64,000 nucleotides of DNA from Pseudoalteromonas sp. UG3-2 (GTDB taxonomy: Bacteria > Pseudomonadota > Gammaproteobacteria > Enterobacterales > Alteromonadaceae): NCBI RefSeq assembly GCF_037120705.1, contig NZ_JAWLJU010000002.1:62001-126000 (forward strand), in the 5' to 3' direction. Position 1 is the stretch's first letter. Every line of letters begins with the position of its first letter. The notes below the pieces were generated by a model, which searched no databases, had not been told where the DNA came from, and saw only the letters and a program-made list of their open reading frames with translations. Positions 23,680 through 29,301 of this stretch are shown in pieces. The position numbers and the translations under genes were made by a program.

Positions 23680-24732
23680 CTATTTCTTAGTTAGCTCTAA
23701 TGAAAGTGGCGTACCTTTCTTTATTGCTATTTTACTACGTTTTCCTATTACATCGTTTAAATACTTCGGTGCTAACCCGTAACCAGGCCTGATACTTCTT
23801 ACGTTCTCAGTGGTGAAGTATTCACCTTCTTCGATATCTTTAACCGCATAAAGTGAACGCCTGAAAACCATGTTTCCTTCTTCACTTTTTTTGCGTTGAT
23901 AATTTACTTTTCCAAGTGCTTGCCAGGCTATTTTGCTGTCTCTGCATAGTTGGGTTAACTCAGGCTCTTCGAGTGAAAAACTATCATCAGGGCCGCCGCC
24001 TTTCCTGTCTAGTGTTACATGTTTTTCAATTAAGCAAGCCCCTAATGCCACAGAGGTAATTGCCGTTGTATTGTCGATAGTGTGATCTGAAAGCCCAGTC
24101 AAAACGGCAAAACGTTTTGCCATATCAGGAATGGTAGATAAGTTATAATCTTCTGCAGGGGCGGGGTAGCCGCTAACGCAATGAAGTACAACTAATTCTT
24201 TACATCCCGCATTTTTTGCCGCATCTACAGCTTCGCGTATTTCTTTTTCATTGGCCATGCCAGTTGAAATAATCATCGGTTTGCCTGTTTTAGCAACGTA
24301 TTCGATAAGGGGTAAATCTATTGCCTCAAATGAAGCTATTTTATAAGCTGGAGTGCCTAATTCTTCAAGCATGTCGACTGCTGTATAGTCAAATGGCGAA
24401 CTAAAAATTGTGATGCCCAATTCGTTAGCTTTTTCAAAAAGCGGTTTATGCCACTCCCACGGCATATGTGCTTCGGTGTATAAATCGTATAAAGTGCGGC
24501 CGTTCCATAAGCCACCTTTAATTTTAAATTCTGGTTTGTCACAATTTATCGTCAGCGTATCCTGAGTGTAAGTTTGAATTTTTATCGCATCTGCACCACT
24601 ACGCTTGGCCATTTCTAAAATTTGCATTGCTCTTTTTATATCACCGTTATGATTTGCAGATAATTCAGCGATTATATAAGGAGGGAACTGAGGACCAACC
24701 TTTCTGCCTCCTATTGTAATGTACTCATTCAT
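23680..24732 (-). CDS. pseI: Pseudaminic acid synthase PseI
   Basis: PseI condenses 2,4-diacylamido-2,4,6-trideoxy-L-altrose with phosphoenolpyruvate to give pseudaminic acid. The 350-aa product has the NeuB/SpsE TIM-barrel (YIIAELSANHNGDIKRAMQILEMAKRSGADAIKIQTY; FSSPFDYTAVDMLEELGTPAYKIASFE; GLSDHT; EKHVTLDRKGGGPDDSFSLEP-like) and a C-terminal antifreeze-like SAF domain (VFRRSLYAVKDIEEGEYFTTENVRSIRPGYGL). SxFD and GGGPDDSF motifs favour PseI over NeuB. It is the last gene of the pse operon and overlaps the upstream gene by 8 nt. Confidence 0.93.
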   Translation of the reverse strand: MNEYITIGGRKVGPQFPPYIIAELSANHNGDIKRAMQILEMAKRSGADAIKIQTYTQDTLTINCDKPEFKIKGGLWNGRTLYDLYTEAHMPWEWHKPLFEKANELGITIFSSPFDYTAVDMLEELGTPAYKIASFEAIDLPLIEYVAKTGKPMIISTGMANEKEIREAVDAAKNAGCKELVVLHCVSGYPAPAEDYNLSTIPDMAKRFAVLTGLSDHTIDNTTAITSVALGACLIEKHVTLDRKGGGPDDSFSLEEPELTQLCRDSKIAWQALGKVNYQRKKSEEGNMVFRRSLYAVKDIEEGEYFTTENVRSIRPGYGLAPKYLNDVIGKRSKIAIKKGTPLSLELTKK

Positions 24733-25375
24733 CAGAACATTTCTCTATTTTAACGTTATATTTGCAGCCACGAATGTAAAAAAAAGCGGGGAATCTATTT
24801 GGGTCGCATACTCTTAGGAGATCAAACTGTGATTCAAGAGATTTTGAGATATCGAGCTCACTGTCTTTTGCAGTACGTTTTGGTAAATAATTGGCTGCGC
24901 TACTATTTTGCAATGTTGGTGTGACGCAACCAAGGTTTTTACATGCCCAAGATATTAATTGAAGCTCGCTACTAAAGAGTTTTTCATTAATTTCGTCGTA
25001 CAGCTCAGTACCATTAAGTTTAATTTTTGTTTTTTTCCATACCCGCCCCGTATCAATTTTATCCTCAGCTTCTAGTAAAGATAGAGTAATATCATTTTCT
25101 CCGTTAAGAATTGACCAGATATGTGGACTCCACCCTCTATTTTTAGGTAGGTCGCTTGCGTGTAACACTAGGCTGTATTGAAACATCTTTCTGTGCTCTT
25201 TTGTGACAATTTCAGAGCAAGAAACTAAAAAAAGCAGGTCCCCTTCGCTGGTTATATCAGCTAAGCGCGTGAGCAAGTTAATAACATATTGATGCTCATT
25301 TTCTGTTTTCCACTTATGCAGCCACCTAAATACAGGATGATTTTCATCTGAGCAGACTAATGTAACCTTCAGCAT
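24725..25375 (-). CDS. Formyltransferase-like protein in the pse operon
   Basis: A 216-aa protein with a formyl-transferase-type core: LVLHASDLPKNRGWSPHIWSILNG (about residues 69-92), then a KIDTGRVW segment corresponding to the LDTG motif of methionyl-tRNA and sugar formyltransferases. The His and Asp of the usual Asn-His-Asp triad are visible, but the Asn position (N-x-H) is Val. It lies between pseG and pseI, overlapping both, where campylobacters have the PseH acetyltransferase elsewhere in the pathway. I infer that it may formylate the 4-amino group of the altrose precursor, giving a 7-formamido sugar. A role as an acyltransferase of another kind is possible. Confidence 0.7.
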   Translation of the reverse strand: MLKVTLVCSDENHPVFRWLHKWKTENEHQYVINLLTRLADITSEGDLLFLVSCSEIVTKEHRKMFQYSLVLHASDLPKNRGWSPHIWSILNGENDITLSLLEAEDKIDTGRVWKKTKIKLNGTELYDEINEKLFSSELQLISWACKNLGCVTPTLQNSSAANYLPKRTAKDSELDISKSLESQFDLLRVCDPNRFPAFFYIRGCKYNVKIEKCSDE

Positions 25376-26433
25376 GTTTGCAAGGCCTCTTGTAGTGTTT
25401 GTGTAACCCTTTTAACGCCCATACCATCACACAGTGCTAAGTTTTGCTTGCTGTAGTACTGCCAATACTTAACTAGGTACTCAATGGTGGAGATAAGCTG
25501 ATTAGAAATATCTTCTAGTTTTATGAGCTTTACAGCTTTAGCATTAACTAAAGCTTTTGAGATGTCATTTTGATTATCTGCTATGGGTACTAATATTGAC
25601 GGAATACCTAAGCAAGCTCGCTCCCAAGATGTAGAACCTGGCGCACCTATCGCAAGGCTGAATTGGCTCATAAAACTGGCCATATTATCAACAAATTCAA
25701 TATGTTTTACCCAGTCAGGGTGCTTTTCTGCAAACTTTTTTATCGCTGAGTAATGGGGTGCTCGTTGGCTTATAAGCACTGTCGTTGGGTGTGGTTTTTT
25801 AACTGTTGCTAATGCCTTTAGTACTTCTAATGTAGCATTAGGTTTATCAATTCCTCCCATCGTTATTAAGATATTATGGGAGCTTGGACTGTTTTGTTGC
25901 TGATTTTGTCTCTGCTTTGTAAATTCTGGACTCAATAGTGCGTAATCAGTTCCTGTCAGTGCTTTACAAGGAAATATTTTTTCATAACTAGTGGGCTGTC
26001 TGTTTAGTGTTTGATCAACGACGATGTGGGCACGATGTACTCTAACAAGGTCATCTATCACCGTTAAAATACAATTTAATTTATTTTTAACGATTTCATG
26101 CCAAGTTGCGCCAATTCCATAATGATCAACAATAACTAAGTCTGCATATTTTACTTTTTTTATAAAATCAAGGCAGTCTTGCTCTTCAGTCATTTGCAGC
26201 CAAGCTGCGTAGTCACTTGAATGACTTGGAGTGGACCATTCGTAGGGCTTTTGCAGTGCGATTACTTCAAAACCTCGGGTATTAATTAATGTATTCAAGT
26301 CTGCTTTTTGTTCTCGTGTTGCAAATAATACATTATACCCTATGCGCTTTAACTCTTGAGCGAGTACTAGGCACCGCATAACGTGACCACTCCCTATGTG
26401 TATTGAAGCATCCACACGAAACACAACTCTCAT
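25369..26433 (-). CDS. pseG: UDP-2,4-diacylamido-2,4,6-trideoxy-L-altropyranose hydrolase PseG
   Basis: PseG removes UDP from the altrose intermediate before condensation. The 354-aa product is a GT-B-fold hydrolase with the N-terminal DASIHIGSGHVMRCLVLAQEL containing the catalytic His of HxGxGH, DHYGIGATWH, and a C-terminal nucleotide site (ILITMGGIDKPNAT; AIGAPGSTSWERACLGIPSILVPIADNQ). It overlaps pseF by 4 nt. Confidence 0.93.
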   Translation of the reverse strand: MRVVFRVDASIHIGSGHVMRCLVLAQELKRIGYNVLFATREQKADLNTLINTRGFEVIALQKPYEWSTPSHSSDYAAWLQMTEEQDCLDFIKKVKYADLVIVDHYGIGATWHEIVKNKLNCILTVIDDLVRVHRAHIVVDQTLNRQPTSYEKIFPCKALTGTDYALLSPEFTKQRQNQQQNSPSSHNILITMGGIDKPNATLEVLKALATVKKPHPTTVLISQRAPHYSAIKKFAEKHPDWVKHIEFVDNMASFMSQFSLAIGAPGSTSWERACLGIPSILVPIADNQNDISKALVNAKAVKLIKLEDISNQLISTIEYLVKYWQYYSKQNLALCDGMGVKRVTQTLQEALQTC

Positions 26434-28291: not shown

Positions 28292-28299
28292 AATAAATT

Positions 28300-29301
28300 T
28301 TACAATAATGCTTGAACATTGAAGTTTTTAATTTCTTCAACACTCATATAATCAGGGTTATCAAGCGAGTTATACTCGAAACCTTGGGCAACTTTTTTAC
28401 CTTTTTCACCAATAGCATTCACAGTAAAATCATTACTACGACTACTGAACTTAATACCCGGAGCGATAACAAAGTGGTCGCTATACTCGTACGTTTCAAA
28501 GCATAAGTCGACAGGGCACATAACTTCGTGTAACTTTTCGCCTGGACGAATACCAATTATTTTAATTGGTAAGTCAGGTGCCATGGCTTTGGCAAGATCA
28601 GTAATACGAATTGAAGGAATTTTGGGAACAAAAATTTCACCACCCAACATGCGTTCAAAGTTAGTTAAGACAAAATCAACACCTTGTTGGAGACTAATCC
28701 AAAAGCGAGTCATCTCTTCGTGCGTAATCGGTATATGGTCACGGCCTTGGTCGATAAATTTTTGGAAAATAGGGACCACAGAGCCTCGCGAACACACTAC
28801 ATTGCCATACCTAACAACAGAAAAAGTTGTTTTATGGCCGCCAGCAATGTTATTCGCAGCAACAAATAATTTATCAGAGGCAAGTTTTGTCGCACCATAT
28901 AAGTTGATTGGGTTCGCTGCTTTATCAGTCGACAGTGCAATGACTTTTTCTACGTTATTATCAAGAGCAGCATCAATGACGTTTTCAGCACCATTAATAT
29001 TGGTTTTGATACATTCCATTGGGTTGTATTCAGCGGCAGGTACTTGTTTTAATGCTGCAGCGTGAATCACGTAGTTCACGCCTCGCATAGCTCGACGAAG
29101 TCTTTCTTTATCACGAACATCGCCAATGAAGTATCGCATGCACGGTTGGTCAAACTCTTGCTGCATTTCAAACTGTTTTAGTTCGTCCCGTGAGAAGATA
29201 ATGATCTTCTTAGGTTTATAACGTTCCAGTAGCGTTTTGACGTACTTTTTACCGAATGAGCCAGTACCACCGGTAATTAAAATCGTTTTATTGTCGAACA
29301 T
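28300..29301 (-). CDS. pseB: UDP-GlcNAc 4,6-dehydratase (inverting) PseB
   Basis: PseB starts the pathway by converting UDP-GlcNAc to UDP-4-keto-6-deoxy-L-IdoNAc. The 333-aa product (same size as characterised FlaA1/PseB) has the NAD(P) motif [15 protein letters not shown], then [18 protein letters not shown] with the YxxxK pair and adjacent DK, and [19 protein letters not shown] chose the ATG at 29301 because TTAGGT precedes it; the in-frame ATG at 29325 has no ribosome-binding site. Confidence 0.94.

Follow-up and report, generated by a model that had tools for sequence, protein, structure and literature searches.

How does an operon that otherwise encodes the pseudaminic acid pathway acylate its amino sugar when no gene for the acetyltransferase PseH is seen in it? 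This question is raised by a 64,000-nucleotide stretch of the genome of Pseudoalteromonas sp. UG3-2 (contig NZ_JAWLJU010000002.1, positions 62,001 to 126,000; hereafter the window), in which a protein of formyltransferase type (hereafter FT) is encoded between pseG and pseI. We consider it very probable that FT takes the place of PseH and formylates the amine made by PseC, which would give 5-acetamido-7-formamido pseudaminic acid (Pse5Ac7Fo).

The initial annotation, made from the letters alone, had read pseB, pseC, pseF, pseG and pseI as contiguous, and profile searches agree: all five proteins exceed their NCBIfam equivalog cut-offs and, with FT, form a single head-to-tail operon on the minus strand in the order pseB-pseC-pseF-pseG-FT-pseI. 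The pseB stop lies 8 bp ahead of pseC, and from there on to pseI each gene runs a few bases into the next, the overlaps already described for FT being 7 bp with pseG and 8 bp with pseI.

28300..29325, minus strand: pseB, UDP-GlcNAc 4,6-dehydratase (inverting), start at 29325 or at the second ATG, 29301; TIGR03589, 553 bits (cut-off 408)
27110..28291, minus strand: pseC, aminotransferase that makes the C4 amine; TIGR03588, 556 bits (cut-off 424)
26430..27113, minus strand: pseF, pseudaminic acid cytidylyltransferase; TIGR03584, 347 bits (cut-off 206)
25369..26433, minus strand: pseG, UDP-sugar hydrolase, 354 amino acids, without an acetyltransferase fusion; TIGR03590, 283 bits (cut-off 154)
24725..25375, minus strand: FT, PF00551 formyltransferase, 216 amino acids, core HASDLPKNRGWSPH, Val70-His72-Asp108; PF00551, 36.8 bits
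23680..24732, minus strand: pseI, pseudaminic acid synthase; TIGR03586, 520 bits (cut-off 340)

The steps of PseB and PseC, PseG, PseI and PseF in the pseudaminic acid pathway are established, and PseH uses acetyl-CoA as its donor. In the pathway that we infer for this operon, with its donor, substrate, site, product and acceptor, PseB and PseC would convert UDP-GlcNAc into UDP-4-amino-4,6-dideoxy-L-AltNAc, and FT, as an N-formyltransferase of the 10-formyl-tetrahydrofolate type replacing PseH, would formylate the new 4-amine (C7 of pseudaminic acid). PseG would then remove UDP, PseI add pyruvate and PseF activate the sugar with CMP, yielding CMP-Pse5Ac7Fo, from which a Maf protein would put the sugar on flagellin. 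FT and PseH (TIGR03585, a GNAT) would thus share a pathway step while belonging to unrelated families, and the computed residue masses of the two products are 302.11 Da for Pse5Ac7Fo versus 316.13 Da for the diacetyl form, Pse5Ac7Ac.

Family, predicted fold and conserved residues of FT

The PF00551 match of FT lies above the curated cut-off of 26.1 bits and is its only Pfam match. Its predicted structure has a pLDDT of 95.2, and the best 50 matches of each fold search with this model were, by title, formyltransferase-type enzymes, so that the formyltransferase-type assignment made at the outset holds, with a highly confident prediction of FT as a PF00551 formyltransferase. The sugar N-formyltransferases ArnA, VioF, WbkC and QdtF share this fold and, judged by their titles, act on other amino sugars. 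Structures of PseJ are also available (6ci2, 6ci4, 6ci5, 6edk), a protein that we take to come from Anoxybacillus and to act in the pseudaminic pathway. Like FT, PseJ is of PF00551 formyltransferase type, and it is named for that pathway; its E values against FT, 0.005 to 0.007 in single-sequence searches and about 1e-6 in profile searches, rank it below 1zgh, ArnA, FMT (methionyl-tRNA formyltransferase) and VioF; the 6ci entries were not among the best 50 matches of either fold search, which has no bearing either way.

Relatives of FT are widespread, with 2857 homologues at E <= 0.001 for FT as query and 2493 for a distant member, two lists that overlap and may include other formyltransferase clades. 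The closest named relatives are from Pseudoalteromonas, and none named among the 120 homologues listed is from P. aeruginosa, a species that has a 7-N-formyl pilin sugar. Some relatives are misnamed, and named homologues carry labels such as 'methionyl-tRNA formyltransferase' or 'UDP-glucuronic acid dehydrogenase'. Such names, together with a TIGR00460 match of 63.8 bits, might suggest that FT is an ordinary methionyl-tRNA formyltransferase, but the score is far under the 201.5-bit cut-off of that equivalog, Pfam recognises PF00551 alone, and the genome has a separate FMT-like protein (L005; 320 amino acids, core N-V-H-G-S-I-L-P) that branches in the tree with two near-identical proteins of the genus, away from FT. 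This identity was rejected on the TIGR00460 score, and we regard its probability as negligible.

His, Asp and Asn are the catalytic residues of PF00551 formyltransferases, and the initial annotation had noted that Val appears in place of the Asn. The replacement is correct, Val70 of FT aligning with the Asn of N-L-H in ArnA, with which FT shares the His and Asp; it is not an anomaly of this gene, however, as the residue is Val in 239 of the 240 retrieved homologues and Ile in the other, while among the FT loci described below its equivalent is Leu in L022 and L066 and Ile in L034. Because the Asn is also missing from solved proteins of the same fold, namely 1zgh (Val) and HypX (Ile), and is Gly in four paralogues of the genus (L088, L090, L092, L093), it does not strictly define PF00551. 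Val at this position is a trait of the clade and not decay. Decay of the FT gene was itself rejected because the clade is conserved and the position of the gene is unchanged in 76 of 78 loci.

A related possibility is that FT, lacking the Asn, no longer transfers formyl groups and instead performs, for example, formyl-tetrahydrofolate hydrolysis or another one-carbon or acyl transfer, for which one may point to the Asn being present in ArnA and in the FMT-like protein of the same genome. We judge such a loss very unlikely, given that all 240 retrieved homologues retain the loop and the His and Asp (His72, Pro77, Gly81 and Asp108 being invariant), that the HypX domain, with its Ile, was solved with tetrahydrofolate (6j1f), and that FT keeps its position between PseG and PseI. 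If FT does transfer formyl groups, a natural Asn-less clade would make the role of the Asn in this fold testable.

FT loci in other genomes and the search for PseH

One scan of genome contigs with two peptide patterns gave 78 FT loci (77 distinct, L030 and L031 being copies), a sample that leans to the LVLHASDLP core because one of the patterns is that core; 52 of them include the whole 9 kb to either side. FT is followed by PseI at a distance of at most 200 bp in 76 loci and preceded by PseG at no more than 220 bp in 76, the four exceptions being L046 and L083, which are cut by contig ends, L052, with an intervening PseF, and L066, in which no PseG is seen. PseB, PseC and PseF were matched in 67, 73 and 62 loci, respectively. 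In a Limnohabitans metagenome-assembled genome, PseG and FT form a single in-frame fusion with an uninterrupted frame (L047:3311-5017), paralleled by a PseG-GNAT fusion in L139. Among 80 genomes of the genus, strong FT matches (E below 1e-50) occurred in four, all near PseI, and the one in G031 is of a sister type of FT, here FTe, 0.8 kb from PseI.

PseH had been called absent at first sight, and a search of the whole genome with TIGR03585 gave 22.2 and 21.0 bits for the two best matches against a cut-off of 93.1. Judged from their open reading frames (ORFs), these are RimI-like and MnaT/Pat-like proteins. The absence thus stands in that nothing passes the cut-off, and yet it is weak evidence alone, because only one of the 80 genus genomes passes TIGR03585 though 57 hold PseI over its cut-off; an argument from this model alone that FT and PseH exclude each other was dropped for that reason. 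Because TIGR03585 is insensitive in the genus, two GNAT profiles were built, one from five PseI-adjacent acetyltransferases of the genus (PseH-type) and the second from seven further GNATs in the vicinity of PseI. No GNAT was found by either profile at positions 17001-36000 of the window, and the PseH-type profile found none in the 78 FT loci.

A sample of 274 genomes of the class contained FT-type matches (E <= 1e-30) in five, FT in G000, G335 and G351 and FTe in G168 and G173. All five had a PseI match, that of G173 being below cut-off and 4.5 kb off. PseH (E <= 1e-12) lay within 2 kb of PseI in one of these five and in 10 of the 24 genomes that hold PseI (E <= 1e-90) without FT, numbers too few to decide on exclusivity. 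In the genus, 31 PseG-like ORFs (520-572 amino acids; L156-L188) resembled PseG-PseH fusions; we make no such claim, because Pfam finds a GNAT domain in only 3 of 41 PseG-like ORFs scanned and leaves the C-terminal extension unrecognised.

A second clade, known sugars and the choice of nitrogen

A second formyltransferase clade, FTz, has the core FHMTDLP or close variants and belonged to PF21553 in the single protein tested. FTz stands beside PseI in five of the loci collected, all with a PIG-L deacetylase, and in a check on 398 genomes of the phylum it was found (E <= 1e-30) in seven, with PIG-L and PseI nearby in each; PIG-L therefore accompanies FTz in 12 of 12 loci, seven of them an independent test. 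The solved protein 1zgh, titled 'Methionyl-tRNA formyltransferase from Clostridium thermocellum', belongs by sequence with FTz (E 2.8e-64 to an FTz protein), the type paired with PIG-L, whereas the window has neither. PseH is present in eight of the 12 FTz loci (L134, L139, L141, L208, L209, L211, L212, L213), not always adjacent to PseG; three have FTe (L190, L207, L210) and one has PseH and FTe (L203). Except in L203, PseH was called at 57-106 bits to the PseH-type profile or as a seed of that profile (L134, L139, L141), TIGR03585 itself giving 38-52 bits, under its cut-off, and the two GNAT profiles found one GNAT of the other type in L190 and none in L207 or L210. The pseI match of L190 (G031), a locus with FTe, FTz and PIG-L, contains an in-frame TGA.

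PIG-L occurs without FTz in L142 and L204, and among the 78 FT loci in only one, where it is 31-33% identical and some 7 kb away from FT. No PIG-L deacetylase was found in the genome that holds the window, for which reason PseC is the only visible source of a free amine. In the tree FT and FTe group together (support 99/97; FT alone 88/87) and FTz forms a separate branch (100/98), the tree program warning of long branches that meet where FTz joins the outgroup rows. By its grouping with FTe, and with no PIG-L found in the genome, FT is not of the FTz type.

This gene content suggests that PIG-L would free the acetylated nitrogen (C5) for FTz, and that FT or FTe would act on the PseC-made amine otherwise acetylated by PseH. 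We lean, by a little, towards a two-slot code in which the C7 nitrogen is served by FT or FTe in place of PseH, and the C5 acetyl is exchanged for a formyl group by PIG-L and FTz. If so, module swaps would yield 5Ac7Fo, 5Fo7Ac and 5Fo7Fo forms, the sugars made by L207, L210 and L190 would be of the 5,7-di-N-formyl kind (residue 288.10 Da), and the genes surrounding pseG and pseI could tell how a bacterial nonulosonic acid is N-acylated, with FT as the proposed gene marker for 7-N-formyl pseudaminic acid and PIG-L with FTz as that for C5 formylation.

A formyl sugar of this kind is already known from the genus, which speaks for the reading proposed here, as does a protein labelled P. distincta (P0028) that is a 63% relative of FT. 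In the accessible portions of the papers cited here, Pse5Ac7Fo, the same sugar as predicted for the window, is reported from Pseudoalteromonas distincta KMM 638 (PMC3210612, PMC7281560) and diacetyl pseudaminic acid from P. atlantica (PMC7281560), and N-formyl is among the natural C5 and C7 substituents (PMC6388019). Those portions also mention formyltransferases encoded in the flagellin islands of Geobacillus, Alteromonas and enterobacteria, none of them tied to this step, and state that PseH is lacking where islands of Geobacillus carry pse genes (PMC5109656, PMC4875605). In a search that covered few subscription journals, we found no paper assigning the FT family to this step and none linking PIG-L, a formyltransferase and pseudaminic acid. 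Since the chemistry of Pse5Ac7Fo is known, what is new here is the assignment of the FT clade and its contrast with FTz and PIG-L. The flagellin of Shewanella oneidensis is reported to carry a 274-Da sugar with a basic group (PMC3765264); Pse5Ac whose 7-amine is free has this computed mass (274.12), as if the acyltransferase step were missing, and because of its basic group the sugar is uninformative on formylation.

Several observations weigh against FT as the replacement of PseH. PF13302 has 12 matches in the genome, 11 of them over cut-off and all lying outside the window, and with a PseH model this insensitive an acetyltransferase unlinked to the operon may exist. Nearby PseH was seen in only the 10 of 24 class genomes given above, many PseI loci showing neither gene; 26 of the 78 FT loci fall short of 9 kb on a side, with remoter genes outside view, and 10 of the 78 contain another GNAT, at no more than 41.9 bits to PseH. 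In L203 (G168), a 406-amino-acid protein (6640-7860) is PseH, at 150.8 bits and over cut-off, fused to FTe; beside it is an FTz-GNAT fusion (7809-8972, 387 amino acids), with PIG-L upstream in the same pse locus. Given the fusion of PseH to FTe, formyl transfer does not in every case shut out acetyl transfer from a locus, and this fusion may reflect mixed acylation of one amine or another FTe target there. Lastly, the Pse5Ac7Fo of P. distincta KMM 638 is, in the accessible text, from a polysaccharide, not flagellin, with no gene named, and the label of P0028 goes no further than the species.

The PF13302 matches and the fusion of PseH to an FT sister in G168 would also fit a scheme in which FT formylates the other, GlcNAc-derived nitrogen (C5) and an unlinked GNAT performs the PseH step. 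We find this quite unlikely, as no PIG-L to free that nitrogen was found in the genome, PIG-L meets a different clade in every FTz locus, and the single PIG-L among the FT loci is both divergent and distant. The 5-acetamido-7-formamido product first proposed for this operon, with FT acting at the PseC-made amine, is thus the reading for which gene position, domain content, the contrast between FT and FTz with PIG-L, and the known chemistry of the genus speak most strongly.

Flagellar setting and a mosaic boundary

Flagellar genes surround the operon in this genome of 4.16 Mb on two contigs, among them fliD, fliS, a FleQ-type regulator and the following two:

21560..23626, plus strand: Maf-family glycosyltransferase; PF20157, 155 bits, and PF01973, 106 bits
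29511..30296, plus strand: flagellin; Flagellin_N and Flagellin_C

Two further flagellin-like ORFs were judged by eye at 17060-17878 and 18079-18894. The Maf-family protein, which scores 90 bits against the PseD model NF050051 (cut-off 670), is probably the transferase that puts the sugar on flagellin, and the flagellin at 29511..30296 its probable acceptor, so that the sugar of the operon probably decorates the flagellum.

Comparison with 14 loci by blastn located one further feature within the operon:

27186..27195, no strand: mosaic boundary near the pseC 3' end

From pseB to pseC, the DNA shares 86-88% identity with G006, G058 and G077, of the same genus and without this FT, and the match stops at these positions; that to a fourth locus, L147 (G012; 85.5%), stops at 27468. 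The pseG-FT stretch matches FT loci only (L006, L007, L135, L136; 65-70%), with the exception of a 170-bp piece of pseG in L140, whereas matches to pseF and pseI are found in FT-less loci as well. By these alignments, a block of the operon was swapped.

Other genes can occupy the position of FT. In G010, whose PseI is 76% identical to that of the window, an SDR, a metallophosphoesterase and an ATP-grasp protein lie between PseG and PseI (L137:4642-6990), and neither FT nor PseH does; this set is perhaps another way of modifying the amine. Among 132 ORFs neighbouring FT, 13 match a glutamine amidotransferase domain and 11 a His_biosynth domain (compare L204:7760-10449), genes of kinds that may add an amidino group to a sugar.

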